Assembly (NCBI GenBank): GCA_030950905.1
Contig: JAUZQQ010000019.1
Location: 1 to 40,724 of the forward strand
Source of the DNA: Mariprofundaceae bacterium
Lineage (GTDB): Bacteria; Pseudomonadota; Zetaproteobacteria; Mariprofundales; Mariprofundaceae
Direction of reading: 5' to 3'
Length of the DNA stretch: 40,724 bases
Part shown: in pieces, positions 3,201-10,280 of the stretch
Position numbering within the stretch: position 1 is the stretch's first letter
Layout: every line of letters begins with the position of its first letter
Made by a program: the position numbers and the translations under genes
Notes under the pieces: generated by a model
Seen by the model: only the letters and a program-made list of their open reading frames with translations
Told to the model about the DNA's origin: nothing
The model's database searches: none

Positions 3201-3269
3201 AAAGGGGTCAGGCTTGAAAAGTTGACTTTTTAGCAGTCATTTTTTCAAGTATTCAAGCCTGACCCCTTT
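3201..3269. repeat. MITE/REP-like palindromic element
   Basis: Perfect 18-bp inverted repeat AAAGGGGTCAGGCTTGAA (3201-3218) / TTCAAGCCTGACCCCTTT (3252-3269), with a nested TGACT/AGTCA stem in the loop. Confidence 0.8.
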
Positions 3270-3336: not shown

Positions 3337-4194
3337 TTATTCACGCTGACTATCACCTTCCCGTAAACGCTGGACTTCCTCTAAGCGCAAACCTGTGCTT
3401 TTGGCAATAGCATGATCATCCAATATCGCTAACAGCGATTGGGCAATATCTATTCTTGCCTTGCTATCCCCTTGTTCCAAACCTTGTTTTTTAGCGAGAG
3501 ACAATGCACCGCGCTGATCTTGGATAAAGATCTCACGATGCTCCTGATCATCCAGCTCTTCAGGGCTTAAGCCTGCTTTGTTGGCAATACGAAAGGCATG
3601 TTGAATCGCGGTATCATCAACCATGCTTTTGGGCACAGCCTCTAAATCAGAAGCGGACTTGAGAAAATAGAACCAACGATCCAAATCATTTTTCAATTCA
3701 TCTTCGCCTTTGTTAAACTTTGGCAGTTCAGCAAACACAAGCTCCAGATCATCATGGTATACATACCCATTTTCTGCACGAAGTTTAAAATCATTCACCA
3801 CGCCAGCAAGCTCTTCAAACATGATGAAATCGGTGATGGTAATGGCGATCACATCGGTGAGTTTATGGTAAGCATCACCACGATGAAGTTGGCCTGCGTA
3901 AGCCTTGCAGGCGTTATACAAAACACGTTGCTCAAAACCTTCAACATTGAGCACCTGCATTTCAATGATATACGATTTTCCCGATTCATCTTTGGCTTTG
4001 ATATCAAGATACGTGTCTTTCATGCCTTTGATTTTGGGCGCAAGGTATGGATCAATAATATCCACCTCAGCGATACGATGCGGTGATTGCAGGCTCAAAA
4101 TCGCATTGAGAAAGCTGATTAAAATATCATTGCTTTCTGCGGAGCCAAAAATCCGCTTAAAGGCAAAATCAGTTTTGGGGTTTAAAAAACGCAT
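3337..4194 (-). CDS. Rpn family recombination-promoting nuclease / PD-(D/E)XK transposase-like protein
   Basis: MRFLNPKTDFAFKRIFGSAESNDILISFLNAIL...DIKAKDESGKSYIIEMQV matches the Rpn/PDDEXK family pattern. Start refined to the ATG at 4194, which has a GGAGG upstream. Confidence 0.85.
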   Translation of the reverse strand: MRFLNPKTDFAFKRIFGSAESNDILISFLNAILSLQSPHRIAEVDIIDPYLAPKIKGMKDTYLDIKAKDESGKSYIIEMQVLNVEGFEQRVLYNACKAYAGQLHRGDAYHKLTDVIAITITDFIMFEELAGVVNDFKLRAENGYVYHDDLELVFAELPKFNKGEDELKNDLDRWFYFLKSASDLEAVPKSMVDDTAIQHAFRIANKAGLSPEELDDQEHREIFIQDQRGALSLAKKQGLEQGDSKARIDIAQSLLAILDDHAIAKSTGLRLEEVQRLREGDSQRE

Positions 4195-4283
4195 GGCAGC
4201 CTCCATGCGGGCGAAGCTAACCCAATTTCCAATTTTCCGCAGTACATTGACCCAAATAGTGTTGACGCAAACAGGATAGGCAT

Positions 4284-4664
4284 TTGGGTATACGGTATTA
4301 CGGCGACAGTTTACTTGATCATTCCATTGATGTAGGCACAAAAAAAGCTTTGGTCGTTCTCAGGGTTCGTATGAATGAAATGTTGAATAAAGGGCAACCA
4401 ATTCAGCTAGAAGACTGTGAATGTATAGGTCTTAAGGTTTGTGAAACGGTTAACGTTGAAAGCACGCATCAAGACTTAGATACGATTTTTGCTCAAGCAG
4501 GATTCCCTGATGCCGTGCTCAAAGACTGCGATTACACCCTCCAAAAGGGAGTGCGGTTACTATCGGAGACGCAAGAAAAGAGCATTCCTGTCATTGAAGA
4601 TATTGGACACGTTATGGCCAGTGCGTTTAAACATGACTATGCCAATCAGAGCCAGCCAAGGTAA
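4284..4664 (+). pseudogene. DDE-type IS transposase fragment
   Basis: GIRYYGDSLLDHSIDVGTKKALVVLRVRM...VLKDCDYTLQKGVRL...VIEDIGHVMASAFKHDY resembles a transposase catalytic core. No complete N- or C-terminus; the 5' end overlaps the Rpn upstream region. Confidence 0.5.
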
Positions 4665-4757
4665 GTTGTCCCTCAACTTGTAGCGAAAACGTTGCCACGA
4701 ACTGCGACGCGCTTTAGGCATAGGAAGGGGATCAATTGTGGTTTCAGGACTTGTCAT
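4560..4757 (-). pseudogene. truncated N-terminus of a membrane-anchored protein downstream of the ABC exporter (possibly HlyD/membrane-fusion type)
   Basis: MTSPETTIDPLPMPKARRSSWQRFRYKLRDNLPWLALIGIVMF: short basic cytoplasmic N-terminus then the start of a TM helix, 23 bp after the exporter stop on the same strand. The remainder is antisense to the transposase fragment. Confidence 0.35.
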
Positions 4758-4780
4758 GAGGCACTATTCCAGTTATAAAT

Positions 4781-6889
4781 TTAAGGGTGAGCAATAAGCA
4801 GCAAAGCGTTACTGCGTTTTAAAACACATTGCAGGGCAATTTTCAGGGTTTCAGGATCAAGGGCAGCAAAGCTTTCATCCAAAATAATAAGGCGTGCGCG
4901 TTGCAACAACGTACGGGCAATAAACAGACGGCTGCGTTCACCATGTGAAAGCCGCCAGCCCGATTCCCCTACCATCTGTTGCATGCCTGCTGGCATACTA
5001 TCCAACAAATCACCCAGGTGTAAATTGCGGCATATCTTATCAGCCTCAATAAGGTCTTCTCGACTCGGCGGCCACTGTCTGCCCATCAATAAATTAAAAG
5101 CGAACGTGGCACTAAGCACGTGATTTTCTTGGAACTGTGGGGCGATAACCACCTGCTTTCGCCAGTGATCATCGCCCCATTGCGCATAAGAAAGCCCCAA
5201 AAGTTGTATGCTACCAGCCTCTGAATGCTGAAGACCTGCGAGCAATGCAGCAAGGGTGGATTTTCCACCACCAGAATCGCCTTCCAGTAGCAGATGTTGA
5301 TGTGCATCAATTCTCAAGTTACAATCATCCAAGATCTGGCGGTGCGAATAGGCAAAAGAGAGTCCTTGCGTGGTAAGCATCGGATGATTTTTTTCGCGTT
5401 GTTCAATCTCTGTGGAGGTAATCAAACGCGGCGATGGCTGTTGTAATCGACGGCTGCTGCTTTGATAAATGTAATGAATCTGCTCCCAAACCACCCATGC
5501 CGCCATAGAATGACGAAAACTCTGCGTCAACTGATCCAATGACAATGCTGCCAGCAGCATTCCCCCGATGCTAATCGTCAGCGATTGAATATCAGCTTGA
5601 GAGGTTGTCAGTGCTGGGTACAACCCAATGCAGCCAACCACCAGCCAGCCACGTCGACCGACAAGGCTCCGCATTATAGCTTCGCTCCGATCAAGCAATT
5701 CAGACAATTTACTGTAATGCGCCAGCAACGCATCTTCATCGGTATGCAACGCATCGGGGTGCTGCTGTGCCAGACGGGTTCGATGGCCCACCATGTTTTC
5801 TGTTAAATCAAAAGACAACTTGCGAGCGTGAAGTATCCATGCCTTCATACGGGAAAAATGTTGAATGGCAAGCCAGAAAAAAACAGCCAGAAAGGCGAGC
5901 AGCAATGAGGCGTGGACCCAGCCACCCACCCCCATAGCTAGCACGCCCACAGCAAGCAACAGTTGCAGCAGTGCCATAAAGGTAACAAACACCATGCTTA
6001 GGCATTGGCCTTCCAAAAACTCAATGTTCATCACTTGACCAAGAAAACTTCCGCTACCCTGATCACGCACCTCCGCCGATTTAAGTTGCAAAACACCATC
6101 CAGCAATCTTTTACGCAGCAAGCAACCGAAATCGAGCGAAATACTGTCTTTGATACGTATACTCAACATTTGCAGTGGTACCGCAGTTAAGAGCAGCAAC
6201 GCCCAGAGGTGCAGCATACCATGAAAACCCGTGGTGTGAAAAATAGTTTCACCGATCACCACCCAGCCCATCAACGCCAACAACTGAGCAGCCAGCATAC
6301 TCAGTACAAAAGCAGAAACCCTGCTCGGAAAACGAATCAGGCAGAGCTGCTTCCAAAAGCTATCACCGGGCAGTAATCGCAAAAGATAACAATGACCAAC
6401 GGGCGCAGATGACAGTTGTTGGCGCAGCATTGCACGCATTGCTTTGTCATACCGCTTTCCTGTAATGGACAACTGGGACAGTGTTTTATTCAAGGTGGGG
6501 CGCAAGGGTGTTTCTAAGTGACCAGCAAGCATATGGCGAACGGTCTCTACTGCCACCTTGCAGATGGTTTGATGGGTATCCATCAACCGCAGTGTTTTTC
6601 GGTTGCCTCCTAACAGCAGTAAAAATCCTGCCTCGTTGGGTAACGGCAAAATGGCAGGGCCAGCATCCTCCAGTACCTGTTCCAGTGTCAGATAATTGAT
6701 TGCAACACCCTGTATACCGACATCCAGTTGTGCCGCACTGTTTGTTAGCCACAAAGATAGTGCATCACTATTCAAGGTCTTGCTATCCAATGGGCTCAAT
6801 ATTCCCAGTTCAGAGGAATAACCTACCCTCTTAAGAAAAGCAGGAAGTGCCTGATGTAGTGCTGAAGCATGCCAGATATAATGTTGCAT
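4781..6889 (-). CDS. peptide/bacteriocin-type ABC exporter (fused TM and ATPase) with an unusual N-terminal domain
   Basis: Walker A GDSGGGKST, signature LSHGERSRL, Walker B LIILDESFAALD, H-loop IAHP. ~200-aa N-terminal region with GPAILPLPNEAGFLLLLGG, resembling a degenerate C39-like domain without an evident catalytic Cys. Confidence 0.8.
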   Translation of the reverse strand: MQHYIWHASALHQALPAFLKRVGYSSELGILSPLDSKTLNSDALSLWLTNSAAQLDVGIQGVAINYLTLEQVLEDAGPAILPLPNEAGFLLLLGGNRKTLRLMDTHQTICKVAVETVRHMLAGHLETPLRPTLNKTLSQLSITGKRYDKAMRAMLRQQLSSAPVGHCYLLRLLPGDSFWKQLCLIRFPSRVSAFVLSMLAAQLLALMGWVVIGETIFHTTGFHGMLHLWALLLLTAVPLQMLSIRIKDSISLDFGCLLRKRLLDGVLQLKSAEVRDQGSGSFLGQVMNIEFLEGQCLSMVFVTFMALLQLLLAVGVLAMGVGGWVHASLLLAFLAVFFWLAIQHFSRMKAWILHARKLSFDLTENMVGHRTRLAQQHPDALHTDEDALLAHYSKLSELLDRSEAIMRSLVGRRGWLVVGCIGLYPALTTSQADIQSLTISIGGMLLAALSLDQLTQSFRHSMAAWVVWEQIHYIYQSSSRRLQQPSPRLITSTEIEQREKNHPMLTTQGLSFAYSHRQILDDCNLRIDAHQHLLLEGDSGGGKSTLAALLAGLQHSEAGSIQLLGLSYAQWGDDHWRKQVVIAPQFQENHVLSATFAFNLLMGRQWPPSREDLIEADKICRNLHLGDLLDSMPAGMQQMVGESGWRLSHGERSRLFIARTLLQRARLIILDESFAALDPETLKIALQCVLKRSNALLLIAHP

Positions 6890-6994
6890 CGCTTGATTCT
6901 CCTAGGAAACTGTCTAAGAATAGCAACGCTAGCGAGCTATTTCTATTTTCGGCCAGCCTCGTATGTGGGACGCATAGAACTGATGTTAGTTATT

Positions 6995-7023
6995 TTGTCA
7001 AGTTTTGAGCAAAAAAATAAATC
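6995..7023 (+). promoter_or_regulatory. candidate sigma70-type promoter for the small peptide ORF
   Basis: TTGTCA (6995-7000), 17-nt spacer, TAAATC (7018-7023), 33 nt upstream of the ATG at 7057. Confidence 0.4.
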
Positions 7024-7056
7024 GAATTGAATGATACATTGATGGAGTGAATTATT

Positions 7057-7251
7057 ATGGAACCTATTTCCTGTTTGTTAATACCAAAGTATATCTTAAG
7101 TAAACTTGGTATCACGAGTGCCTCGGTCGCAAGCCATGGCGCAACGGCGACAACTGCTACTGCCGCCGTTGCGCCAGCAGCAGTTAAGGTTGCAGCAGCC
7201 AGCCAAAGCACTGCTCCTGCTGCAACTGCCACTACGGCAGTTGTCTCCTAA
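7057..7251 (+). CDS. 64-aa Ala/Thr/Ser/Val-rich peptide, candidate exported precursor peptide
   Basis: ATG with upstream GGAG (9-nt spacing): MEPISCLLIPKYILSKLGITSASVASHGATATTATAAVAPAAVKVAAASQSTAPAATATTAVVS. Mixed synonymous Ala/Thr codons argue for coding. Divergent from the ABC exporter. Confidence 0.55.
   Translation: MEPISCLLIPKYILSKLGITSASVASHGATATTATAAVAPAAVKVAAASQSTAPAATATTAVVS
7137..7176. repeat. 13-bp perfect GC-rich inverted repeat inside the small peptide ORF
   Basis: TGGCGCAACGGCG (7137-7149) / CGCCGTTGCGCCA (7164-7176), 14-nt loop. Confidence 0.8.
7223..7243. repeat. 8-bp perfect inverted repeat at the 3' end of the small peptide ORF
   Basis: CAACTGCC-ACTAC-GGCAGTTG. Confidence 0.7.
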
Positions 7252-7279
7252 TTGATGTTTTAGATACATCAGGAGAGTA

Positions 7280-7348
7280 ATGTTGTTTACGGCCTCCGTT
7301 TTAGTCCTCGCTGACGAAGCGGATTGGAATGGTACAGTGCACCCATGA
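7280..7348 (+). CDS. possible 22-aa small ORF
   Basis: AGGAGAGTA-ATG: MLFTASVLVLADEADWNGTVHP. Good SD-like sequence, but very short. Confidence 0.2.
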   Translation: MLFTASVLVLADEADWNGTVHP

Positions 7349-7403
7349 TGGATGTTTCGTTTTTCTGTTCATTTCCGTTAAATACAACCAGCATTCGCCG
7401 CAA

Positions 7404-8237
7404 ATGAATGAAAAAATCGCCCCAATTCCGCCATCCACCACTACGACATCTGTTCTTAGACAGCCGCCTAAACCATTGATTTCTGTTTATATTATGACCT
7501 TTAATGAAGCCGATAAAATTGCTGATGCCATTAAAAGTGTATCATGGGCAGATGAAGTGGTGGTGGTGGATTCTTTTAGCGAAGATGATACCGCTGATAT
7601 AGCTGCCAACCTTGGTGCGCGGATAGAGAATGTTCCGTTTAAGACGTTTGGTCAAATTCGTAATGCTGCGATTGCCACCTGCCGCCATCCGTGGGTATTT
7701 AGCCTTGATGCTGATGAGCGATGTACCCGCAAAGCACAGGATGAAATATTGGCTACGGTTCAAAATTCACAGGCGGATGCTTATTTCGTGCCACGTAAAA
7801 ATTGGTTTCTTGGTCGATGGGTGATGCACAGTGGCTGGTACCCAGATTATCGCCAGCCCCAGTTATTTCGTCAGGGATGCATGCAATTTAATGAACAAGA
7901 TGAAGTGCATGAAAGCTACACTATTTCTGGTACAACAGCGTATTTAACGCAAGATATTATTCAAATACCTTTTAAAGATATTGAGCAAATGCTGCATAAA
8001 ATGCAACGCTATTCGACACTGGGAGCTAAAAAAATTACCCGTCAAGGTCAGACTGGTGGCTTTTGGAAAGGTTTGTTGCATGGCGTGTGGGGCTTTTTTC
8101 GCTTGTATATTCTCAAGCGTGGTTTTTTGGATGGTGCGGCAGGTTTTGTTATTGCTATCGGTAATTTTGAAGGAACCTTCTACCGTTATGCCAAATGTGC
8201 GGCTTACAAAAAACAATCCATGCCGCCTTCAGATTAA
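7404..8237 (+). CDS. glycosyltransferase family 2 (WaaE/KdtX-like)
   Basis: ISVYIMTFNEADKIADAIKSVSWADEVVVVDSFSEDDT...VFSLDADERCT; typical GT2 N-terminus and DAD motif. The alternative start at 7329 adds 25 non-conserved-looking residues. Confidence 0.85.
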   Translation: MNEKIAPIPPSTTTTSVLRQPPKPLISVYIMTFNEADKIADAIKSVSWADEVVVVDSFSEDDTADIAANLGARIENVPFKTFGQIRNAAIATCRHPWVFSLDADERCTRKAQDEILATVQNSQADAYFVPRKNWFLGRWVMHSGWYPDYRQPQLFRQGCMQFNEQDEVHESYTISGTTAYLTQDIIQIPFKDIEQMLHKMQRYSTLGAKKITRQGQTGGFWKGLLHGVWGFFRLYILKRGFLDGAAGFVIAIGNFEGTFYRYAKCAAYKKQSMPPSD

Positions 8238-8868: not shown

Positions 8869-8921
8869 AACAGGCTCTTTAAAACGTAGTTTCCACCTTA
8901 ATGTTTTACAAGAGCCTTGTT
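8869..8921. repeat. imperfect inverted repeat (possible terminator or REP)
   Basis: AACAGGCTCTTTAAAAC / GTTTTACAAGAGCCTTGTT, imperfect pairing. Confidence 0.4.
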
Positions 8922-8984
8922 TGTTGGGCGTCGTCTAAGCGGCTAAGGTATTGGTTCTTGCTAAAACTTCCCTATCATGCGCGC

Positions 8985-10280
8985 ATGACTATGATAGTAA
9001 AAACACTTTTATGCTGCTTACTCTTTGCTGGCCATGCTTGGGCGACAACATTGCCCAGCTTTGAGCGCCAACGTATAATGCAGGCTTTGCATGAAAACAA
9101 ACAAGATGTTATTCAGCAATTGGATGCCAAAGAAAAACTGGTGTTGCAAGTGGCATTAACACTTCAAGACAATACGCCTGAAAAAACCCTTGCCTTAATT
9201 CGCGACATAAAATCAACCCCACTTGACCCATTGTTGGCTGTGATGGCTGCCGAGGCACATCGCCGTTTGGCTATTCGCGCCGTAACTGAGGCTGGGCAAT
9301 ATGCACAAACATTGCAACAGCAACGAAAAAAATTAGAGACCATTGATTTGTCCAGAGGTTTGGCTGAAGCAGATTCCAAGCTTGTGGCCTTGGCTGAAAA
9401 GTTAAAGGGTAGCAAGGCTGTTCCTTTGGCCATACTGCAATTGGGTCATACTGTTGAAAATGTATTTCTTGTTGACAAAACACGCGCGCGTCTGTTTGTT
9501 TACCGACAAAATTCACAGGGAAAATTGTACCGTGATGCTGATGAATATGTGGTGACAGGAACATCAACGGGGGACAAACAAAAAAAAGGGGATAAACGAA
9601 CACCCAATGGCGTATACCATTTTATTCAGCAATTGAATGACCCTGCGCTTCACGCCCGTTATGGGCCTGTATCGTTCCCTATTGATTACCCCAATGCATT
9701 GGATGTTATGCACCATAAAACGGGGTCTGGTATTTGGATGCATGGCTACCAACAAGATCTACAACGCCGTGCGCCACAAGATACCTTGGGTTGTTTTGCC
9801 TTGCCCAACAATAAATTGTTGGCTGTTGCAAAAAAAATTCGCTTGCATCACAGTTGGGTGGTTATCGGTAAAAACATTCAATATGTTGATGACACCGTAC
9901 GCCTAAGCTTGCGGGATAATGTACTTCAAGCCGTCACTGGCTGGGCAAAAGCATGGTCATCGCGCAATCATGCGGCGTATATTGCATTATATGACCCACG
10001 CTTTCATCATGAACGCCATGATTTTACAAGCTGGAACCGTTACAAAAAACGTGTTAATGCTAACAAAACATACATCAAGGTCAGCTTATCTGATATAACC
10101 TTGATTCACGATCCCGAGCGTTGGCCAGAAGGTGAAGTGGTGGTTGCTGAATTTACCCAAGATTACAAATCCAGTAATTTAAACACTGTCGGCAGAAAGC
10201 GTTTATACTGGGTACGTGCCGATGCAGCATCGCCTTGGAAGATTTTAATTGAGCAGTCAATCCCTACCTATGCCCGATAA
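8985..10280 (+). CDS. L,D-transpeptidase family protein (YafK/ErfK-like) with C-terminal NTF2-like domain
   Basis: Signal peptide from the ATG at 8985; IWMHGYQQDL...DTLGCFAL catalytic-type motif; C-terminal SRNHAAYIALYDPRF NTF2-like region. Confidence 0.85.
   Translation: MTMIVKTLLCCLLFAGHAWATTLPSFERQRIMQALHENKQDVIQQLDAKEKLVLQVALTLQDNTPEKTLALIRDIKSTPLDPLLAVMAAEAHRRLAIRAVTEAGQYAQTLQQQRKKLETIDLSRGLAEADSKLVALAEKLKGSKAVPLAILQLGHTVENVFLVDKTRARLFVYRQNSQGKLYRDADEYVVTGTSTGDKQKKGDKRTPNGVYHFIQQLNDPALHARYGPVSFPIDYPNALDVMHHKTGSGIWMHGYQQDLQRRAPQDTLGCFALPNNKLLAVAKKIRLHHSWVVIGKNIQYVDDTVRLSLRDNVLQAVTGWAKAWSSRNHAAYIALYDPRFHHERHDFTSWNRYKKRVNANKTYIKVSLSDITLIHDPERWPEGEVVVAEFTQDYKSSNLNTVGRKRLYWVRADAASPWKILIEQSIPTYAR

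Follow-up and report, generated by a model that had tools for sequence, protein, structure and literature searches.

A 64-codon open reading frame divergent from a degenerate C39-type ABC exporter in a Mariprofundaceae genome: a candidate peptide gene in a rearranged copy of the edge of a larger cluster

Genes and features of the locus

The DNA studied here, which we refer to as the window, is a stretch of 40,724 nucleotides forming part of contig C26 of a 1.6 Mb, 82%-complete genome (G000) of the Mariprofundaceae, an iron-oxidising family. Reading of the sequence identified an intact ABC exporter gene (702 aa; 4781–6889, minus strand) and, divergent from it, a 64-codon open reading frame (ORF; 7057–7251, plus strand), both exactly as the original prediction had described them. 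The good ribosome-binding site claimed for the small ORF was also found: a GGAG at 7044–7047 lies 9 nt 5' of the ATG and is identical in a second copy of the ORF on contig C45 of the same genome. The plausible promoter claimed alongside it was not supported, as sigma-70-like matches numbered 7 against 4.1 ± 1.8 expected and none was well placed for the ORF. A sigma-70 promoter was dropped, the match count being not clearly above chance.

The first 28 codons of the ORF (MEPISCLLIPKYILSKLGITSASVASHG) are conserved in the C45 copy and are followed by an Ala/Thr/Ser-rich tail. Between the exporter and the ORF lies a degenerate, dispersed palindromic repeat of REP-like character (6909–6968; second copy at C45:3520–3579), to which a hairpin in genome G002, accompanied there by several short copies, is related. 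A hairpin across the ORF stop codon (7244–7276, plus strand; fold z-score −2.9; C45 alignment) is a weak candidate for a terminator, having no good T-run and a stem that is partly broken in C45. On the far side of the exporter, at the left end of a duplicated block, an SPFH/Band-7 gene survives as a 5' fragment of approximately 40 codons (4633–4757, minus strand). The original prediction, with its left edge at 4560, also spanned this truncated gene and had not recognized it. An association of the downstream glycosyltransferase (7329–8237) with the peptide was rejected; in G002, G003 and G062–G064 a GT4-like gene precedes the glycosyltransferase. Elsewhere, palindromic repeats (GGGGTCAGGCTTG) were observed at window 3201–3265, adjoining a PD-(D/E)XK (Rpn-type) transposase gene (3337–4341), and on C45 (locus L003, 140–244).

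The exporter has recognizable nucleotide-binding motifs (Walker A GDSGGGKST, signature LSHGE and Walker B LIILDE) and, like its homologues, ends just past the H-loop (IAHP). An alignment of five homologues (A4) delineated the subfamily motifs PQFxxNHV...FNxLMGxxWP and GWRLSHGE. The N-terminal 171 residues (6377–6889, minus strand) were modelled with AF2 at a pLDDT of 84.6, and the best Foldseek match of this domain was the C39 peptidase domain of PCAT1 (7n87; E 5e-4, probability 1.0, TM 0.47–0.53), the top 16 matches all being PCAT structures or PCAT peptidase domains. This predicted fold bears out the bacteriocin-exporter-like N-terminus that had been claimed. A model of the whole exporter (pLDDT 43.6) was left out. 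The domain is nonetheless degenerate: set against the catalytic C39 domains of the cluster described below, it shows that the catalytic Cys and His are absent, there is no Cys in the first helix, the HF motif has become GF or TF in both Mariprofundaceae orthologues, and the Pfam C39 profile found no match in the domain. An hhalign comparison with the catalytic C39 exporter described below gave an alignment limited to the ATPase domain, from too few sequences. Assignment of the exporter to NHLM, LssB, HlyB or CydC was rejected, with scores far under the cut-offs. Based on its having a C39 fold without the catalytic residues, and on the pairing of its homologues with C39 exporters, the exporter is probably the partner without proteolytic activity in a peptide export pair of two ABC proteins.

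Origin of the block and its parent cluster

Comparisons within the genome indicated that window 4633–7280 was duplicated, with rearrangement, from the margin of a larger cluster of the Mariprofundaceae. Window 4633–4996 matches the end of contig C64 (9803–10166) at 97.3% identity; a full SPFH gene (8908–9927) precedes the final part of the same exporter there. The exporter start (6829–6897) and the repeat with the ORF (6909–7280) each have a match on C45, at two sites between which a sulfotransferase and a P-type ATPase lie, and the duplication/deletion junction in the window is at 6898–6908. The simplest history would be one in which the ORF of the parent locus was divergent from a series of P-ATPase, sulfotransferase, exporter and SPFH genes, and in which the copy lost the sulfotransferase and P-ATPase (approximately 3.2 kb), along with the greater part of the SPFH gene, then sat at C26. 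The block is taken to be an insertion because the downstream glycosyltransferase follows another glycosyltransferase gene in relatives. The ancestral divergent neighbor of the peptide gene was thus probably a P-type ATPase operon and not the exporter alone, and the suggestion that the exporter is dedicated to the ORF was not upheld, their adjacency having arisen via duplication and deletion. Only the first ~20 codons of the exporter are left on C45, beside the repeat shared with window 3201–3265, and C64 breaks off within the exporter; the window exporter is therefore the only intact assembled copy. The parent exporter may have been cut by repeats or by contig ends, the assembly being compatible with either a broken or a whole parent copy.

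Based on the exporter pieces at the contig ends and the gene order in a same-genus relative (G003, Mariprofundaceae MAG S012_146, contig WFOJ01000107), where P-ATPase, sulfotransferase, exporter and SPFH genes follow one another on one strand, we infer that C64 and C45 carry one cluster. The cluster, with its C64 part (L078, 562–9927) and its C45 part (L003, 407–12116), is partly conserved in G003 (C107, C124, C131) and G149 (C11). The C64 part encodes a MamK-family actin (NCBIfam 381.6 bits, just under the cut-off of 400), a 95-aa protein, a C39-peptidase ABC exporter with the catalytic Cys, His and Asp in place, a short protein that is putatively HlyD-like (by position and general look, with no library match), a substrate-binding/TSP3/OmpA protein, a DUF697 protein, a small membrane protein and SPFH; the C39, DUF697 and Band_7 domains were assigned by Pfam on the G003 counterparts. 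Small conserved membrane proteins of 55 and 95 aa lie beside SPFH and MamK. A conserved ORF of 53–58 aa (M-[SA]-QRTNIK-x-GN-x-L-x-DFW) was also observed beside the DUF697 gene in both genus members (L078 7775–7936; L034 3056–3232). The C45 part encodes a sulfotransferase, three P-type ATPases, a radical-SAM protein weakly related to TIGR01210, a NodU-type carbamoyltransferase and a DUF481 protein. The ATPases are P1B-like, without the CPx metal motif before DKTGT (L003 1431–3482, 7149–9152 and 10212–12116; L034 8402–10423; L062 294–2297; L061 415–2514; L108 2234–4339). Five of the seven examined, that of G149 included, carry N-[AG]-H there, which is missing from L003 10212–12116 and L061 415–2514.

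Exporter homologues were recovered by profile search from G149, with 843 bits, and from G156, with 524 bits, and each lies directly after a C39 exporter gene. G149 also shares the P-ATPase, substrate-binding protein, DUF697 protein, short HlyD-like protein, SPFH and a 54-aa membrane protein. The homologues in G003 and G149 lie within clusters of P-ATPase, sulfotransferase, SPFH and C39-exporter genes that have no counterpart of the ORF; the original prediction had named the lack of a conserved small ORF beside orthologous exporters as an outcome that would refute it, and for these two orthologues that is the outcome. No peptide homologue was found beside the orthologues of G003, G149 or G156. 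In G003 (C107; L034, L052) the genes ahead of the exporter operon encode an adenylation/reductase (NRPS-like) protein, an aldo-keto reductase, another sulfotransferase-like protein and an argininosuccinate-synthase-like protein. A Piscinibacter gummiphilus plasmid (NZ_CP136338) encodes a more distant homologue (29% over the full length), whose gene comes after those for HlyD and a C39 exporter; the cluster there also has an MNIO (DUF692) RiPP-maturase relative, a TfuA-like protein and a carbamoyltransferase, and looks like a RiPP cluster. The plasmid locus (L103, 82–14253) contains HlyD, two ABC exporters, the MNIO/DUF692 and TfuA-like proteins, a large carbamoyltransferase-domain protein and a 57-aa ORF.

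The small ORF and its possible roles

The ORF has a sole paralogue in its own genome, the 73-aa C45 copy (C45:3667–3888), which ties it to the larger cluster. Searches of 100 relatives and of 299 genomes of the phylum (two overlapping sets), together with G149, G156, plasmids and viral contigs (approximately 400 in all, genomes included), identified no other homologue. Weak tblastn matches in G070 and G084 were rejected, having stops or lying inside or opposite other genes, and the remaining weak matches among the 100 relatives were at chance level. The claim that the peptide matches no family was sustained, with Pfam, NCBIfam and PHROGs all giving no match, and there was none to RiPP or bacteriocin families. 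As the tail is of low complexity, a diverged homologue could be missed by these searches. The ORF has no double-glycine motif (a leader ending in GG, GA or GS), the only approach to one being HG-A at residues 27–29, and inspection did not reveal the hydrophobic pattern at −4/−7/−12 expected of such a leader. The tail is without Cys or aromatic residues. With regard to the conserved leader and variable core of a RiPP precursor, 27 of the 28 front residues are identical and the middle of the tail varies, but the last 21 codons are nearly identical as well, in a comparison of two sequences only. The window has no modification enzymes by the ORF, because its GT2 neighbor belongs to another locus.

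Whether the ORF is a gene at all was weighed from the paralogue pair. The two copies differ by a 27-nt in-frame indel that keeps the frame and by substitutions at 6 of 159 alignable ORF positions (3.8%), compared with 18 of 176 (10.2%) in the flanking non-coding DNA (Fisher p = 0.032). The lower divergence of the ORF indicates that it is probably coding, although a single paralogue pair makes this modest evidence. It could instead be a frame without function that happens to be open where the divergent operon has its promoter, its two copies alike through recent duplication. In keeping with this, an ATG-initiated frame of 64 codons or more arises on the plus strand in approximately 6% of random sequences with matching dinucleotide composition, so that its length is weak evidence and other support is needed; the tail is of low complexity, the opposite strand is also open (80–86 codons), no homologues occur elsewhere and there is no good promoter. 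The lower divergence from the paralogue, the survival of the frame through the indel and the kept ribosome-binding site all argue against a chance frame, and we consider it unlikely. We similarly doubt that the ORF encodes a small, non-exported accessory protein, for example a membrane-associated protein or scaffold acting alongside the CPx-less P-type ATPases or the filament of the MamK family, in which the hydrophobic front would bind the membrane and the Ala/Thr/Lys tail would serve as a flexible linker. The divergence of the parent-locus ORF from a P-ATPase operon, the other small conserved membrane proteins of the cluster (55 and 95 aa) and the basic tail (calculated pI 10.5 in the paralogue) would suit such a role. 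However, the P-ATPases of G003 and G149 have no counterpart of the ORF nearby, and the front has a mean hydropathy of only ~1.0–1.2 over 15 residues with two Lys inside, which is not a clear transmembrane segment.

A further explanation, concerning the window copy only and overlapping with the others, is that the block is a decaying, non-functional relic moved via recombination at dispersed repeats or by nearby transposase genes, so that only the C45 and C64 copies matter. The truncation of SPFH at 4633, the Rpn-type transposase (3337–4341), the repeat (3201–3265) common to both loci and the status of the block as an insertion, judged by glycosyltransferase order in relatives, are consistent with this. 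We regard it as rather improbable, as the exporter and ORF of the window are both intact and it is the parent-locus exporter that is cut by repeats or contig ends. The reading we favor, at a probability of roughly 40%, is that the ORF encodes a precursor-like peptide that is specific to the lineage and is exported through a two-ABC system. The window would then carry, in a derived second version, the edge of a cluster for peptide modification and export, and the peptide, with its conserved 28-residue front and variable Ala/Thr/Ser/Lys tail, would be translated, modified, exported and cleaved. The possible modifying enzymes are those adjoining the paralogous peptide on C45 (the radical-SAM protein, the NodU-type carbamoyltransferase and the sulfotransferase), none of which is of a recognized peptide-modifying family; export might be by the catalytic C39 exporter and short HlyD-like protein, in the same inferred cluster on a different contig (C64), together with the degenerate-C39 exporter. 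This precursor reading is favored by the retention of the ORF in two copies with coding-like constraint, by the combination of the degenerate-C39 exporter with the C39 exporter and HlyD-like protein of the parent cluster, by the pairing of exporter homologues with C39 exporters in G149, G156 and the Piscinibacter plasmid, and by the three enzymes surrounding the C45 copy. It is weakened by the lack of a peptide homologue beside exporter orthologues, of a double-glycine motif and of any family match, by the probable ancestry of the divergent partner as a P-ATPase operon and by the dependence of the constraint evidence on one paralogue pair.

If the ORF product is exported, it would be a peptide outside every searched family whose likely modification enzymes and two-ABC exporter were identified by comparison. 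More speculatively, and in our judgment unlikely as a whole, the parent locus could be a so far undescribed system that modifies and exports peptides, or builds a compartment, and in which CPx-less P1B-like ATPases (several with N-[AG]-H), a catalytic and pseudo-peptidase ABC pair, SPFH, MamK-family actin, radical SAM and carbamoyl- and sulfotransferases act on Ala/Thr/Ser-rich peptides such as that of the ORF. The cluster joins a MamK-family actin, metal-type P-ATPases without the metal motif and a peptide export pair, and we know of no described system with this combination, which recurs partly outside the Zetaproteobacteria (G149). Literature searches for a MamK/P-ATPase/carbamoyltransferase cluster, and for bacteriocins of the Mariprofundaceae, found no papers.

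Comparison with known systems

The MamK-family actin is shared with magnetosome gene clusters, from which the other gene content of the parent cluster differs. MamO, the sole core gene queried besides MamK, gave only weak protease matches in G000 (82% complete) and G003; since no MamO-type protein was found, the parent cluster is, as far as tested, not of the canonical magnetosome kind. The occurrence of MamK in genomes that are not magnetotactic was noted earlier (PMC5955933). G010, another member of the family, has an apparent true magnetosome cluster (L081, C2:12001–32000) with MamK, MamO-like and cation-diffusion genes and a second MamK on C40, and G149 has three MamK-like genes with 37–40% identity (C318, C262, C293; L112, L114, L115).

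The window exporter has the same domain order and predicted N-terminal fold as the peptidase-containing ABC transporters (PCAT1, ComA and the C39 exporters of bacteriocins and RiPPs), but has lost the catalytic Cys and His, and the neighboring ORF has no GG leader. A true C39 exporter is also present in the parent cluster. HlyB and LssB of type I secretion likewise join a degenerate C39-like N-domain to an ABC exporter, and the HlyB/D structure was among the Foldseek matches of the N-domain; however, the NCBIfam scores were 99 bits for LssB and 75 for HlyB, against cut-offs of 693 and 726, and no RTX-type substrate or TolC gene was seen here. The NHLM/NHLP export systems combine a peptidase ABC protein, a non-peptidase ABC protein and an HlyD-like protein in the same architecture, whereas the NHLM cut-offs (TIGR03796 and TIGR03797) are well above the scores of the window exporter (94.6 of 853 and 92.5 of 709 bits) and the C39 exporter (168.9 of 853), and the NHLP leader is absent from the ORF. 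Although the 57-aa candidate ORF of the Piscinibacter cluster (NZ_CP136338) is unrelated to the 64-codon ORF, and its MNIO and TfuA proteins were not seen on the Mariprofundaceae contigs, that cluster brings together an exporter homologue, a C39 exporter, HlyD and a carbamoyltransferase, as in the Mariprofundaceae.
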